Source: a virus. From it: a stretch of 24,785 nt of DNA. Both the position numbers and the translations under genes were made by a program. The DNA lies in the IMG/VR virus record IMGVR_UViG_3300043436_002337, positions 1-24,785 of that record. One strand, written 5' to 3'. The notes under the pieces were generated by a model that saw only the letters and a program-made list of their open reading frames with translations, did no database searches and had not been told where the DNA came from. Positions 12,594 to 17,397 of this stretch are shown in pieces. The stretch's first letter is position 1. Each line of letters opens with the position of its first letter.

Positions 12594-12715
12594 ATCAACT
12601 ATCGCCTGAGGAGCAACGATTCGTGGACAAAACAGTTGAAGTCATCTACTTCACGGGATTAACAGCAACGTGTGTTGCCATCCTGTGGTGGGTCATCGGC
12701 AAGATCACGAAATAA
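12590..12715 (+). CDS. 41-residue single-pass membrane peptide
   Basis: The ATG overlaps the methyltransferase stop (ATGA). The peptide MNQLSPEEQRFVDKTVEVIY is followed by a hydrophobic span FTGLTATCVAILWWVIG and a short basic end (KITK). The charge pattern predicts one membrane helix with the basic end in the cytoplasm. It is the last gene of the operon, and its end overlaps the end of the convergent integrase gene by 11 bases. A holin-like, superinfection-exclusion or accessory role is possible, but nothing in the sequence decides this. Confidence 0.6.
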   Translation: MNQLSPEEQRFVDKTVEVIYFTGLTATCVAILWWVIGKITK

Positions 12716-13604
12716 CTGAGTCAGGTGCTGAACCCGACCCGAACCGATCCCCATCAGGCTCGACAACAATCTGAGCTATCACATCAGCCTGGCTAACCAG
12801 CGACACAGGATTTAGTAGGCGCAAAGTCTGCCGAACATACCTATCGTTCGTGTGGCCGAGCCACTTCGCAATGACCGGGACAGGAACACCACGCTGAAAC
12901 TGACGCTGGACAGCCCACCGACGCATATCCTGCACCGTGAGCCGACGACCAACAGCATCCGAAGCGACATCATTGATCGTCTCAGTCGCGTGCTTAGAAC
13001 CAAACGTCCCACCGAGCGTAGTAGTCGCAGCGAACACCGCTGTCAGACCTAAAGTCAGCACTTCAAGCCGACCGTCCACCGGGATCTCGCGCCTGTTGCC
13101 TCGACGAGAACGCACCGTGACTAGCGTCTTCCCTTCCCATGTCCGAACATCCGTCTTCCGAATTCGGAGAGCTTCAGCGCAGTCACAGCCACCCCAGGCG
13201 ACCATCGCAGCGAGCCATTCCCAACGAGGCCCACGCTTAGAGAACGCTGACATGACCAACACCATCTCATCATCGGACGGCACAGTCGAATTGTCAAGCA
13301 CGATGACACGCTTCGGCATCTTCACCGAATGCAAACCGTGAACCTTAAGAACACCAGCCTCGACCAGCGCGTCCATCCACTTCGCGACCCCACAAACACG
13401 GGACGCAACCGAGGTTGACGTGTACTGCGAAGCCATCCAATCCACAAACAGTTGAGCATTCACCGCCGTGCAATCCAGCGGATGGATATCCACAAGAAGA
13501 CACCACCGTTGCCAGGTCATAATGTCCTTCTTATACCGTTTACGAGTATGAATCGAGGCATAACCCCCAAGATGATGAGCAGTAATTGATCGTACGGAAG
13601 CCAT
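12705..13604 (-). CDS. Tyrosine-recombinase-family protein, catalytic residues altered
   Basis: A 299-residue protein using ATG 13604 (an in-frame TTG lies two codons upstream). The N-terminal 100 residues resemble the SAM-like core-binding domain (RKRYKKDIMTWQRWC). The C-terminal domain follows the phage integrase layout: GGCDCAEALRIRKTDV (box I), VRSRRGNRREIPV (beta-hairpin), LTVQDMRRW (box II) and KWLGHTNDRYVRQT. However, box I Arg is Asp141, the hairpin Lys is Arg, the box II His is Gln225, and no Tyr lies 9-10 residues after His251 (Tyr255 is at +4). Only Arg228 and His251 remain in place. It may be a non-cutting DNA-binding derivative, or an integrase with displaced residues. It is convergent with the early operon. 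Confidence 0.75.
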   Translation of the reverse strand: MASVRSITAHHLGGYASIHTRKRYKKDIMTWQRWCLLVDIHPLDCTAVNAQLFVDWMASQYTSTSVASRVCGVAKWMDALVEAGVLKVHGLHSVKMPKRVIVLDNSTVPSDDEMVLVMSAFSKRGPRWEWLAAMVAWGGCDCAEALRIRKTDVRTWEGKTLVTVRSRRGNRREIPVDGRLEVLTLGLTAVFAATTTLGGTFGSKHATETINDVASDAVGRRLTVQDMRRWAVQRQFQRGVPVPVIAKWLGHTNDRYVRQTLRLLNPVSLVSQADVIAQIVVEPDGDRFGSGSAPDSVIS

Positions 13605-13846
13605 AAACAATGTTTACCACACATAATCGGAATTATTCGCCTGCAACGCACGCTGTCGGGCCATATCTGCGAAAATATTTTGCGATCACGCACGCTGTCA
13701 ACCCACACCCAGCATCCGGTTGGCCGTCGGCAGACTTCGATCGTGGCCAGCTCGCCAACCCCAGCCAGGTATCCGGCTGCAAAACACCCCAAACGCCCGC
13801 ACCTATGACACCCCCCGAATTTCGTCACCGACGAAATAGGTACAAC
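13605..13846 (-). promoter_or_regulatory. Integrase upstream region with promoter and repeated operator
   Basis: No gene is supported here. Read on the minus strand, TTGACA (13696-13701, perfect -35) and TATTTT (13672-13677) lie 18 bases apart. A 12-bp direct repeat, ACGCACGCTGTC on the plus strand, occurs at 13646-13657 and 13688-13699, start to start 42 bp (four helical turns). One copy overlaps the -35 and the other lies about 15-26 bases beyond the -10. A 10-bp palindrome AAAATATTTT (13672-13681) sits between them and includes the -10. This suggests a looped or cooperative repressor site. An attachment site may also lie here but cannot be recognised without the host sequence. Confidence 0.45.
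13819..13837. repeat. Perfect 8-bp inverted repeat
   Basis: ATTTCGTC and GACGAAAT are separated by ACC. There is no T-run on either side, so it is not a standard terminator. It lies 10 bases from the leftward terminator, on the integrase side. It could be an operator, a recombinase arm site or an RNA stem. Confidence 0.5.
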
Positions 13847-14235: not shown

Positions 14236-15222
14236 TCACAACGCCACCAGCCCACGACGAACACGAACCGACACCGCCGCACCCAACCGACCCGCCGACC
14301 GTCCGCGATTCTTCCCGCCGTGCAACAAGAACGTCACACCGCGCACCGCCCCAGTCGGCAAACAAACACGGCAAGACGGACACGCACCCGCACCCAATTC
14401 ACCACGCCGAGCCGTCGACCGCCGACCATCCGCGCCCACAACATGAGACGACACGCCAACCGAATCGCGCGCCCATTTACCTGTCGCCGGGCATTCAATA
14501 GGAGCAACCACGGGAGCAACCGCCACGGCACGCGCCCAAAGTTCTACCGCGTGCGCTTGATCATCGGCAAGCATGGCAAGCGGCAAACCAAGTTTGTGAC
14601 CCGCCCGCGCCATCTTCGCGACGTTCTCCGAATCCGCCGACAACATGACCCGCAAGTTGTCGGGAGCAGGTAGCAGGCTCTTCACCTTGACCGCGTCCCG
14701 CGTATAGATCCAATGGGCTACACCTGGCGAAGCCACAACAGCCGACCGAATCGCGCGCCCATACCAGCCCGCAAAAATATCACCAGCAGAATGCCAACGG
14801 AACGACGGGCGAGCAACACCGCGCGCCCGTTGCTGAACTTCCGAATGACGGACACACGCCACCAGCGCATCGATGACAGCCCGTTGACCCCCGCACGCTT
14901 TCAAGTGTTCAAGGTTCGCAAGGTTGACCGATGCACCTATAGCAAGATTCTTGTAAAGGTTCTCTAACCCTGCCGCGTAGCAGTCAACACACGCCGATGT
15001 CGTGGCATCACACGACCCGCCCGTATCCAATGGGCCAACCGGCAACGGAAACGCGTTCGCAACCAAAGCAGACGCGCCACCCTTAGCCGATATCTTCACC
15101 GCTGGCGAAGTCTTCGCGTCATGGTGCAACATGAACCGCAACGCCTCGCCACAACGGCAAGAAACAAAAACCCCGCCACCTGGCTGGGCGTGAACAGTAG
15201 GCAACCAGTCCGCGCCACTCAT
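14236..15222 (-). CDS. Gp88-like cysteine-rich protein
   Basis: A 328-residue protein. The core resembles the 'gene product 88' family first named in mycobacteriophages: C71-x6-C78-x2-C81-Y (CDATTSACVDCYAAG), then SFRWHSAGDIFAGWY (140-154), WIYTRD (171-176) and LRVMLSADSEN (190-200). A C-terminal cluster follows: C244 (ECPATGKW) and CPSCRVC (281-287), then VTFLLHGG. The first Cys group has the look of a metal or Fe-S site, as in radical-SAM-like proteins, but the family's activity is not known to me. An extra CxC (22-24) lies near the N-terminus. The start overlaps the stop of the preceding gene (ATGA). The DNA is more GC-rich than the rightward genes, with a strong preference for GCG/CGC codons. 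Confidence 0.7.
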   Translation of the reverse strand: MSGADWLPTVHAQPGGGVFVSCRCGEALRFMLHHDAKTSPAVKISAKGGASALVANAFPLPVGPLDTGGSCDATTSACVDCYAAGLENLYKNLAIGASVNLANLEHLKACGGQRAVIDALVACVRHSEVQQRARGVARPSFRWHSAGDIFAGWYGRAIRSAVVASPGVAHWIYTRDAVKVKSLLPAPDNLRVMLSADSENVAKMARAGHKLGLPLAMLADDQAHAVELWARAVAVAPVVAPIECPATGKWARDSVGVSSHVVGADGRRSTARRGELGAGACPSCRVCLPTGAVRGVTFLLHGGKNRGRSAGRLGAAVSVRVRRGLVAL

Positions 15223-15632
15223 ACGACCACCACCGACGAACCATTACCGCAACCGTCACAAACAAACGCGAACGAACGCGCGTCGCCCATGACATCCCAC
15301 GGAACGACCAACGCCGCCAACGGCCAAACAGTCGGGACGGGATGCACGCCCGCAGATTCACAAGACGCGCACCGAAAATAAGTCAAAGCCGCCCGCAATG
15401 TTGAACCTTGCGCGTCGGGAGAATTTACGAACGCGTCCCAGCGCGCCGCATCGACCGCGTCCGGAATCGGAATCCCGAGCCGTTGGGCGATCTCATCCAT
15501 GACGCTGTCGTCGTAGTAGTCGTCACCCGATAGGCGCGCCATATCGTGATCATCTAAATTCTCATCATTAATTAACACACACTCGGACGCGTCAAAGATC
15601 ACGCCCGACTCATGCACGATATATCTAGTCAC
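15219..15632 (-). CDS. Acidic protein with paired CxxC
   Basis: A 137-residue protein, coupled at both ends by ATGA overlaps. The first 70 residues are very acidic (INDENLDDHDMARLSGDDYY and DDSVMDE). The C-terminal half carries two knuckles, CASC (FRCASCES) and CDGC (FVCDGCGNG), about 35 residues apart, a plausible zinc ribbon. No family is recognised. It lies between another acidic protein and the Gp88-like gene and may work with them. Confidence 0.65.
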   Translation of the reverse strand: MTRYIVHESGVIFDASECVLINDENLDDHDMARLSGDDYYDDSVMDEIAQRLGIPIPDAVDAARWDAFVNSPDAQGSTLRAALTYFRCASCESAGVHPVPTVWPLAALVVPWDVMGDARSFAFVCDGCGNGSSVVVV

Positions 15633-15889
15633 GATTCCACCCCCGCAAAATGAACGCGCAATAAGTCCGCGAACTCTTCAACAGTTCCCAAAACCCACAA
15701 CAAAAGCGGGTCGGTGTAGTCGTCGTCTTCGTCTATGATCCCCTGAGCAATTTCCACGCGCTCATTAATCCAGTTCAAGCGATCCCGCACGCTGAGATCA
15801 AGCACGCTCGGATCATGCACGCTGAACCCGCACGCTGGCGCGTCTCCGGACGGCGCGCCCGTCGACGTTGGTTTATTAACGGTCATCAT
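15629..15889 (-). CDS. Small acidic protein A (unknown function)
   Basis: An 86-residue protein starting ATG ATG, with AGGGG 3-4 bases upstream. The first 30 residues are Ser/Pro/Thr-rich. The rest is helical and acidic (IIDEDDDYTDPLLLW, then TVEEFADLLRVH), with a net charge of about -11. No family is recognised. Its leader holds one copy of the paired structured element (15933-15973). The stop overlaps the next start. Confidence 0.6.
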   Translation of the reverse strand: MMTVNKPTSTGAPSGDAPACGFSVHDPSVLDLSVRDRLNWINERVEIAQGIIDEDDDYTDPLLLWVLGTVEEFADLLRVHFAGVES

Positions 15890-15932
15890 TAACCCCTATC
15901 TGTTTAGGTGATTCCCCAACGGAACCACAGCA

Positions 15933-15973
15933 CCCAGCCGAGTTACGAACTCGGAAAACCCCGCAGGGCTGGG
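15933..15973 (-). promoter_or_regulatory. Structured leader element, copy 2
   Basis: An outer 5-bp stem (15933-15937 with 15969-15973) directly abuts an inner 7-bp stem (15938-15944 with 15948-15954) closing the loop ACG. A 14-base strand AAAACCCCGCAGGG (plus-strand sense) joins the inner stem to the outer 3' arm. Copy 1, about 345 bases away, has the same architecture, loop and linker length, with compensating base changes in both stems. On the transcribed minus strand the linker reads CCCTGCGGGGTTTT, which could itself act as a short terminator-like hairpin. It lies in the leader of the 15629-15889 gene, about 45 bases before its start. Confidence 0.65.
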
Positions 15974-15981
15974 CCAACAAC

Positions 15982-16236
15982 TCAAGAAACGTACTTGAGC
16001 CAGTCCTGAGCCATGCGAACCGTCAGCGCGACCAGTTCGCCGTCGTTGTACATACCGACCAACTCAGGGAACAGATCCGAAGCCAGGTCGGCGATCTCAT
16101 AACCAACCGCCACGGGATCATCGTTCGCCTCTTCTAGAAATTCTTCCCACGTCTTGCCCACGCTGCGAGGATCGCGCACGATCTTCTCGTAGTCACAAAC
16201 CGCCTGACAGACTTTCGCATATGTTGATAATTCCAT
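15982..16236 (-). CDS. Small acidic protein B (unknown function)
   Basis: An 84-residue protein with AAGGGG in its leader just before the start. It is mostly helical: TYAKVCQAVCDYEKIVRD, KTWEEFLEEANDD, then YEIADLASDLFPELVGMYND and a final amphipathic helix. The net charge is about -10. No family is recognised. The short size, acidity and leftward early-type position would fit an anti-host or anti-defence protein, which is inference. A structured element precedes it (16278-16320). Confidence 0.6.
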   Translation of the reverse strand: MELSTYAKVCQAVCDYEKIVRDPRSVGKTWEEFLEEANDDPVAVGYEIADLASDLFPELVGMYNDGELVALTVRMAQDWLKYVS

Positions 16237-16277
16237 TGTGAACCCCTTATTTATGAACCCACCAAGTAGCGGGTAGC

Positions 16278-16320
16278 GCGTAGTCAGGTTACGAACCTGA
16301 TAAACCCCGCAGGGCTACGC
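16278..16320 (-). promoter_or_regulatory. Structured leader element, copy 1
   Basis: The outer stem GCGTAG/CTACGC (16278-16283 with 16315-16320) abuts the inner stem TCAGGTT/AACCTGA (16284-16290 with 16294-16300) around the loop ACG. The 14-base linker TAAACCCCGCAGGG matches copy 2 except for one base. Relative to copy 2, three inner pairs and two outer pairs differ by compensating double changes. That favours a selected RNA (or cruciform) structure over a conserved protein-binding sequence. It lies in the leader of the 15982-16236 gene. Confidence 0.65.
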
Positions 16321-16328
16321 CAGCCAGG

Positions 16329-16679
16329 TCACGCGTTAATGTTCACCATTCCGTGATCACCCCATGAAGAATGAATATCACGAAACCGAATCGCGTCATC
16401 TTCATAATCCCACAACGACCAAGCATCAACCCACGCGTCATTCTCCGCGTCACTCATCCCCTTAGGACGATCCCCGCTAGGAGTCGTATCAGCATCAACC
16501 GAACAAACATAAAGCCGACCCCAGTCAGCCCCGTCGTCATTCATTAAATCTGTATCAAGTCCCTCGGCGATCCATTCGCGCACTTGCTCAACCGCATCCC
16601 ACATAAAGTCAAAAGCGTAGTAGTCCGAATCCGAGGCAGAGTCATAAACCGCAAAATAGATCTGAGGCTTCGCACTCAT
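16329..16679 (-). CDS. Strongly acidic protein C (unknown function)
   Basis: A 116-residue protein whose ATG directly follows the stop of the preceding gene. It contains about 26 Asp/Glu against about 7 Lys/Arg, spread along the chain (SDSDYYAFDFMWDAVEQ, DTDLMNDDGADWGR, SLWDYEDDAIRFRD), with many aromatics. The alternation of acidic patches with Trp/Tyr recalls DNA-mimic proteins such as anti-restriction proteins, but no specific family (ArdA, Ocr) is recognised. It is probably translated by coupling from the first gene of the operon. Confidence 0.65.
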   Translation of the reverse strand: MSAKPQIYFAVYDSASDSDYYAFDFMWDAVEQVREWIAEGLDTDLMNDDGADWGRLYVCSVDADTTPSGDRPKGMSDAENDAWVDAWSLWDYEDDAIRFRDIHSSWGDHGMVNINA

Positions 16680-17036
16680 TCAGATCACCCCCGCGAAACA
16701 TTGAGCAATCGCCGAACCGTCAGGACGAACCATCAACGACGCGACCAATTCCGCGAAATCTTCGGCATTGCACACATCGTTCAGATCTACGTCCGAATAC
16801 TCAGTATCAATAAACAAATTAGACGTCTCAAACGCCAACGCCGCGAAACTCATTTCAGGATGAAAAAAATCCACGCCAGCCTGACCGTCAGTCAAAAAGA
16901 CGCGCCCAATATTGCCGTTAATCAATGCAGGACACACAAGAGCTTCACAGCCCCCACCCGTTGGAATCCGCTCCCAACTCCCACCGGTCACCGCGTCAAG
17001 TTCGCGAATCACCTCGTTCACCAATTGCTGATTCAT
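16680..17036 (-). CDS. Acidic protein D, first gene of leftward operon
   Basis: I chose ATG 17036 because AAGGGG (in the leader ATAAGGGGTTCGAA) lies 6 bases upstream; a longer frame up to 17105 would run through the leader hairpin. This gives 118 residues: NEVIRELDAVTGGSWERIP, GGGCEALVCPALINGNIGRV, VDFFHPEMSFAALAFETSNL, then an acidic SDVDLNDVCNAEDF. It looks like a small alpha/beta domain with acidic surface. No family is recognised. The next gene starts right after its stop. Confidence 0.65.
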   Translation of the reverse strand: MNQQLVNEVIRELDAVTGGSWERIPTGGGCEALVCPALINGNIGRVFLTDGQAGVDFFHPEMSFAALAFETSNLFIDTEYSDVDLNDVCNAEDFAELVASLMVRPDGSAIAQCFAGVI

Positions 17037-17042
17037 TTCGAA

Positions 17043-17124
17043 CCCCTTATAAGTTGACCGCCGAAGCGGGCGAGACCGCACGGACTCACCCCCTGATTCT
17101 TCCACATCGGAGCCGACTAGTCAA
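17043..17124 (-). promoter_or_regulatory. Leftward operon promoter and leader
   Basis: On the minus strand, TTGACT (17119-17124) and AAGAAT (17096-17101) lie 17 bases apart (5/6 and 4/6 to consensus). The perfect palindrome GACTAGTC (17115-17122) overlaps the -35 and may be an operator. The leader then has a hairpin CCGC-TTCG-GCGG with a very stable UUCG-type loop, followed by ATAAGGGG. The same AAGGGGTTC ribosome-binding block recurs before the 16236 start, and a shortened form (AGGGGTTA) precedes the 15889 start, so the operon uses a common leader ending. Confidence 0.5.
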
Positions 17125-17289: not shown

Positions 17290-17397
17290 GTAGACCGAAG
17301 TCCTAGACGGCATGACTAGACCGACGCGCTAGACCGAGTACCTAGACCGTGAGACTAGACGCATCGCCTAGACCACGGGACTAGACCGCTAGTCTGT
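17290..17397. repeat. Iteron array: eight 13-bp-period CTAGACCG repeats
   Basis: Copies start at 17290, 17303, 17316, 17329, 17342, 17355, 17368 and 17381, exactly 13 bp apart. Each has an 8-base core CTAGACCG (copies 1, 2, 6 and 7 differ at one or two bases) followed by five bases that vary freely. The last copy ends in a perfect 6-bp inverted repeat GACTAG-ACCG-CTAGTC (17379-17394). The period is not a multiple of three and no convincing ORF spans it, so it is a DNA or RNA element. It lies between the leftward operon and the packaging genes, where replication origins or packaging-initiation sites are found. CTAG is usually rare in bacterial DNA, which makes the cluster more striking. Confidence 0.8.

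Follow-up and report, generated by a model that had tools for sequence, protein, structure and literature searches.

Each of the two real gaps in an operon of small phage genes holds one copy of a folded RNA element that is, judged by its own sequence and that of its relatives, a tRNA mimic without an anticodon arm, made of an acceptor-like stem of 6–7 bp, a D-arm-like hairpin and an abutting T-arm. The element combines a conserved structure, tRNA-like identity signals, a constant placement and recurrence in phages of unrelated gene content. We consider that RNase P, possibly along with RNase Z, probably uses it as a tag for mRNA processing, by which a long phage message would be split.

The window, by which we mean the whole 24,785-nt stretch analysed, is a 24.8-kb virus record that carries genes for WhiB, RecT, a terminase and a GP88-family protein. 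Its minus-strand operon encodes small, mostly acidic proteins, and runs from a promoter-like site (TTGACT-17-AAGAAT, with TG; 17096..17124, identified from a consensus match only) to a GP88-family gene (PF17338; 14236..15222), a homologue of mycobacteriophage gp88. Upstream of the promoter lies an iteron- or operator-like array in which GTCTAG-containing units keep an exact 13-bp spacing (17302, 17315, 17341, 17354, 17367 and 17380, within 17302–17387, minus strand); SGTCTAGK has 11 matches in the window against 1.8 expected, and GGTCTAG repeats of similar kind occur in L110 and L203. A leader hairpin (17052..17091, minus strand) lies 5' of the Shine-Dalgarno of the first gene (118 aa; 16680..17036) and is kept in at least six relatives; its stem varies while the CGUGCG loop region is invariant, and a second hairpin and the Shine-Dalgarno come next. 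Most genes of the operon abut or overlap, the two real gaps being 16328–16237 and 15981–15890. The stop codon of a 116-aa acidic protein gene (16329..16679), whose product had no Pfam or PHROG match, falls 8 nt before copy 2 of the element (16278..16320). After copy 2 come GCU, at positions 73–75 of the tRNA numbering, and a second hairpin, ACCCGC-tacttg-GTGGGT (together 16257..16277), then the Shine-Dalgarno AAGGGG (16248–16243) of an 84-aa acidic protein gene (15982..16236). This gene lies between the copies, its stop codon 7 nt before copy 1 (15932..15974), which is likewise followed by GCU and a second hairpin, GTGGTTCC-gttgg-GGAATCAC (together 15908..15931). Both second hairpins were identified by shuffle test and centroid fold. 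Downstream of copy 1 are an 86-aa acidic protein gene (15629..15889; Shine-Dalgarno AGGGG at 15897–15893) and a 137-aa gene (15219..15632) that overlaps its stop. All of these features are on the minus strand. Neither the small acidic proteins nor the element could be identified with Rfam, ARAGORN, Pfam or PHROGs.

On the transcribed strand, copy 2 (16320–16278) reads GCGTAG-CCCTGCGGGGTTTA-TCAGGTTCGTAACCTGA-CTACGC and copy 1 (15974–15932) reads GCCCAG-CCCTGCGGGGTTTT-CCGAGTTCGTAACTCGG-CTGGGT. The acceptor-like stem of copy 2 is 16320–16315/16283–16278, its D-arm-like linker 16314–16301 and its T-arm-like hairpin 16300–16284; the corresponding parts of copy 1 are 15974–15969/15937–15932, 15968–15955 and 15954–15938. 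A preliminary description had placed two co-varying hairpin elements here, and both fold on the minus strand as it claimed, copy 1 being one G-U pair longer than described. Its other structural points also held: the 14-base linker is identical at 13 of 14 bases, and pairwise comparison of the copies gives compensating double changes at three inner-stem and two outer-stem pairs. One further pair shows a G-C/G-U change. A descriptor of this design (at least five Watson-Crick pairs, a linker of 12–16 nt, and an abutting 7-bp stem with 3-nt loop) matched the two copies and one isolated plus-strand site in the window, compared with a mean of 0.02 matches per dinucleotide shuffle. The plus-strand site, near 13819 (linker TGACACCCCCCGAA) and upstream of the integrase gene, is a chance-level match that could be an attachment-region hairpin. 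Folding energies of the copies did not separate them from shuffles (z of −1.4 and −2.0), so the case for the element rests on covariation, between the copies and across relatives, which supports a folded, cis-acting RNA well.

The preliminary description had listed an attenuator and a processing site among possible roles, and of these the processing site survives, while the attenuator found no support. A transcription attenuator or riboswitch would suit a structured RNA in an intergenic leader, but neither copy is followed by a U-tract, and scanning 15890–15980 and 16240–16330 on the minus strand gave no terminator-like site. Across relatives the stems are the variable parts, and the linker lacks the conservation expected of a ligand pocket. 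That no known riboswitch class would be recognised also proved correct: no Rfam riboswitch matched, and the scan gave only a chance mir-996 match (E 5.6) elsewhere in the region. We rank this reading as the least probable of those weighed. The element was also rejected as a terminator, since a GC hairpin with a direct U-tract is absent at either copy.

One close relative, IMGVR 3300044568_001728, was reached by way of the 14-base linker and the 84-aa protein; it has a homologous operon with a 90% identical 84-aa protein. Both copies are at the same places there, and copy 2 has one A-U pair of its inner stem replaced, in compensating fashion, by G-C. As this operon was found through the linker and protein rather than through pairing, it provides an unselected comparison. 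The linker by itself is not diagnostic; in viral contigs it matched at least 119 stretches, with the structure in one related phage. Terminase and GP88 anchors gave about 95 further loci, in which elements of the same design occupy the same place and carry a canonical tRNA T-arm. L129, for example, is GCGCGG-CCCTGGGGGCTTGT-TCGGG(TTCAATT)CCTGA-CCGCGC-ACT, and L217 is GCCCCCG-...-CCGGG(TTCGAAT)CCCGG-CGGGGGC-ACT. The relatives thus identify the inner stem as a T-arm that abuts the 3' strand of the outer stem, itself an acceptor stem, and the linker as a reduced D-arm. Outside the window's subgroup most relatives keep a canonical T-loop, TTCRANY, with TTCAATT, TTCGATT and TTCGAAT among the forms seen. 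The window copies have a derived loop, TTCGTAA, and together with the close relative (L110/L122) and L126 they form a YTCGTAR subgroup (TTCGTAA, TTCGTAG, CTCGTAG) that has lost A58. Two extra pairs in these loops (T-A/T-A, T-G/T-A or C-G/T-A) may close a CGU triloop on a 7-bp stem. The acceptor stem is 6 bp rather than 7 in most copies of the window's group. Some of the related records, G007 and G008 among them, have the GP88 region, and no copy was found in them.

Covariance models R1 (10 sequences) and R2 (17 sequences) were built for covariation analysis and searching (SIGNIFICANCE). Pairs changed on both sides numbered 9 of 14 in set A4, 11 of 14 in A6 and 13 of 14 in A8, and across 25 sequences the acceptor and T-stems showed compensatory changes at 13 of 14 pairs (70 cells). 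The observed covariation score was reached by none of 500 shuffles for each set, and by no slid version. Across relatives 98–99% of cells were paired, a percentage inflated by the choice of many relatives with a pairing descriptor. R1 and R2 matched copy 2 at 61–65 bits and copy 1 at 60–62 bits. R2 gave 19 matches at 27–65 bits, placing the element in 16 of 49 related records, many of which are fragments; in 50 unrelated records it gave three weak matches, the best at 25.4 bits.

Placement of the element is nearly constant. In 25 of 27 curated elements, position 1 comes 6–9 nt after the stop codon of the preceding gene. Small acidic-protein genes do follow the window copies, as first described, but given this closeness to the stop codon, the end of the preceding gene has at least as strong a claim to the element as the gene that follows. 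A ribosome seated on a stop codon reaches some 7–8 nt beyond it with its leading edge. The gap matches this distance, so the element would be expected to stay folded during termination. Position 1 is G in 24 of the 27 curated elements, and R73-C74 follows the element in 26, usually as RCU, position 75 being mostly U and not C. A 3–5-bp hairpin can form in the linker in all 30 elements examined, with GG within or at the edge of its loop in 24; this is often GTTGG, GTCGG or TGGT, as in a D-loop. In 19 of 26 elements the CU runs directly into a hairpin whose stem has at least 6 bp, compared with 2.8% of shuffles; a Shine-Dalgarno (AAGGGG in the window family) and the next gene come after. From the element to the next start codon is about 30–60 nt, and the ribosome-binding site is not covered.

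Strong folds directly behind a stop codon could be passive mRNA 3' ends or barriers that block exonucleases or Rho, tRNA-likeness serving only stability. Simple hairpins would suffice for that, however, and the conserved T-loop, R73-C74 and D-loop-like GG would be left unexplained; we give such a passive role only a slim chance. Alternatively, the mimic could be bound, uncut, by a tRNA-binding protein and regulate the neighbouring genes at the level of translation or stability. EF-Tu, the CCA-adding enzyme and T-loop modification enzymes all read the acceptor/T-arm half of tRNA and would be candidates, as would a phage protein. The change of the T-loop in the window's subgroup, with both stems kept, is what a co-evolving binder might produce. 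Against this, the elements sit 6–9 nt after a stop and some 30–60 nt before the next start, off the ribosome-binding site, and they recur in phages that share no neighbouring gene. We regard regulation by an uncut mimic as unlikely.

The spread of the element was surveyed with homology-independent pattern scans. The same layout was found amid other gene content in L312, L362 (a 167-kb record), L363, L394 (two copies), L507 (three copies), L515/L570, L601, L679, L593 and L463, in L294, where GCCA follows the element, and in the Gordonia-phage-like L408, whose terminase belongs to a different PHROG. Replication and terminase genes differ among the phages with this layout, and no neighbouring gene is shared. 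It is also present in A-rich contigs that lack Shine-Dalgarno sites (L467, L509 and L491), which hints at other host phyla. In a control that shifted the 3' strand by 3, 4 or 8 nt, short elements behind a stop codon dropped from 13–20 to 0–1. A reversed 3'-strand control was not clean (16 short elements against 27), probably owing to palindromes in G/C runs. Several search patterns required RCT and a D-loop-like GTTGG/GTCGG, so these motifs are not independent evidence in the subset of broader finds. A 76-kb phage record with ordinary tRNAs (L246) has three acceptor-plus-T-arm elements with linkers of 14–21 nt (minus strand, 3452, 3674 and 8053), which may be truncated tRNAs or members of the same class. 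It is plausible that the elements form a widespread RNA class, so far unlisted.

Several of these finds connect to cultured actinophages, namely L408 and the isolated mycobacteriophages SWU1 (L392), where an element at 50606–50651 on the minus strand separates ORF96 from ORF95, the GP88 homologue, and Phaded (L399), with one at 52557–52604. In the isolated mycobacteriophages Bactobuster, IronMan and NothingSpecial the short form precedes the first right-arm operon gene and shows compensatory changes; at that place D29, DBQu4n, Jsquared, TipsytheTRex, Elephantoon and Phonnegut have a longer tRNA-like form, with a linker of 36–75 nt and the same acceptor, T-arm and RCU end. The sequence in D29 (L686; 47981–48084 of its record, minus strand) and DBQu4n has acceptor GGGTAG/CTACCC, T-arm CCAGG-TTCGATT-CCTGG, an ACT end and a 75-nt linker, and no tRNA is annotated there. 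No convincing short element was found in Gordonia phages Ruthy, Ailee and Barsten, in Streptomyces phages Naboo and Wakanda, or in the gap before D29 gene 88. BLAST of the regions from L312, L362, L363, L394, L507, L509 and L468 against named phages gave no match. The sole match to the window's terminase in bacterial genomes was an approximately 3.2-kb contig of a planctomycete MAG (L450, CAIWVZ010000243.1); its terminase has 79% identity to that of the window, and it is probably a mis-binned phage contig.

Copy number and placement bear on two further readings. Up to three copies in one phage (L507), and an architecture that would fit excision at both ends as for mascRNA, might suit a source of small trans-acting RNA, cut out and serving as a decoy that draws off tRNA enzymes or host defences aimed at tRNA. 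But a decoy needs no constant position at gene boundaries, and there is no anticodon arm to draw anticodon nucleases; we consider this very unlikely. Phages carry tRNAs and integrate into tRNA genes, and the window has an integrase gene (12705–13610), so the elements might be remnants of decaying phage tRNA genes or of attachment sites, where attP duplicates the 3' end of a tRNA. The 5' and 3' acceptor strands covary, however, and an attP copy would carry no covarying 5' strand. Two or more copies per genome, regularly placed after stop codons, also speak against remnants of either kind. We set both aside as highly improbable.

As a processing tag, the element would work as follows. RNase P, recognising the stack of acceptor and T-arm together with the R73-C74 end, would cut just before G+1, about 6–9 nt past the stop codon, and RNase Z would possibly cut after R73. 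CCA blocks RNase Z, and RCU avoids this block. The downstream mRNA would then begin with CU and a protective hairpin ahead of the next gene's ribosome-binding site, and a long early transcript would become separately stable, translatable pieces, in a compact version of mitochondrial tRNA punctuation. Features that count against RNase P include the derived T-loop of the window, the 6-bp acceptor, a position 75 that is mostly U, and the lack of U at position −1 in all 27 curated elements. Many RNase P substrates carry U(−1). In the window's subgroup the loss of A58 and the CGU triloop could weaken recognition by RNase P.

A broader proposition, which we hold to be evenly balanced, is that anticodon-armless tRNA mimics, arisen by convergence or spread by exchange, are common to phages of several host groups and punctuate polycistronic mRNAs one ribosome edge (6–9 nt) behind stop codons, where host RNase P and probably RNase Z would cut to leave hairpin-protected 5' ends. 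Cutting of phage operons, where it occurs, is usually credited to RNase III or RNase E. If the proposition holds, many phages shape their mRNAs through essential tRNA-maturation enzymes, and bacteria have a natural, repeated class of mRNA substrates for RNase P, a question reviewed as open (PMC11143913). The processing-tag idea can be tested in laboratory mycobacteriophages. Annotators should be aware that a 'partial tRNA' in an intergenic gap of a phage may have a function and not be debris.

The element was compared with known RNA classes. ARAGORN found no tRNA or tmRNA in the window. An acceptor stem with an abutting TTCRANY T-arm is present in the relatives, in derived form (TTCGTAA) in the window, and linkers of 12–19 nt leave the elements without an anticodon arm, compared with at least 34 nt in real tRNAs of the same records. 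No Rfam family fits the element at its threshold, and the window copies were unmatched. For five relatives the best match, below threshold, was mascRNA-menRNA (RF01684; best 29.1 bits in L217, with two copies, and 24.9–28.0 in L548, L593 and L601, against a gathering threshold of 42.5); for two others it was tmRNA or tRNA-Sec. A copy in L394 scored 20.6 bits as tmRNA, against a cut-off of 47. No account of such elements between phage genes turned up in our search of the open-access literature.

The stacked acceptor/T-arm domain with its T-loop, derived in the window's subgroup, is that of an RNase P substrate. Bacterial RNase P cleaves model substrates consisting of an acceptor stem and T-stem-loop and prefers G+1, and the 5'-GGU of its RNA pairs with positions 73–75 (PMC11143913). 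These substrates (such as AT1) have the same minimal recognition domain, but they are laboratory constructs with a 3' CCA, whereas the phage elements are natural, have a D-arm-like hairpin and mostly end in RCU. Host RNase P is also listed as processing phage RNAs, namely phi80 M3 RNA, P1/P7 C4 RNA and T4 gene 32 mRNA (PMC11143913); unlike the elements described here, these are individual cases without a recurrent intergenic design, and Rfam scans gave no C4 match.

Like the phage elements, mascRNA and menRNA, from the MALAT1 and MEN-beta lncRNAs, have an acceptor stem, a T stem-loop and a reduced D-loop with two Gs, are non-translating and lie within a longer transcript. In mascRNA, mimicry of the tRNA elbow by the two D-loop Gs and T-loop recruits RNase P and RNase Z, which cut at its ends (PMC11693755). 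It differs in being vertebrate, in keeping an anticodon-arm equivalent and in its single-copy position at an lncRNA 3' end, while the phage elements lack the arm and lie between protein genes; the likeness implies no common descent. The t-elements of plant mitochondria tag the ends of mRNAs with a tRNA-like sequence, and cuts there by RNase P and RNase Z define transcript ends (PMC11658184). T-elements and mitochondrial tRNA punctuation share with the phage elements tRNA-like sequences at mRNA ends, but t-elements are full-length, tRNA-like homologues of organelle tRNA genes, whereas the phage elements are 43–50 nt long and sit within operons, 6–9 nt after stops. Members of neither group by any threshold applied, the phage elements may nonetheless, we infer, act like mascRNA and t-elements, and would then be a bacterial-virus counterpart of mascRNA and of mitochondrial tRNA punctuation.
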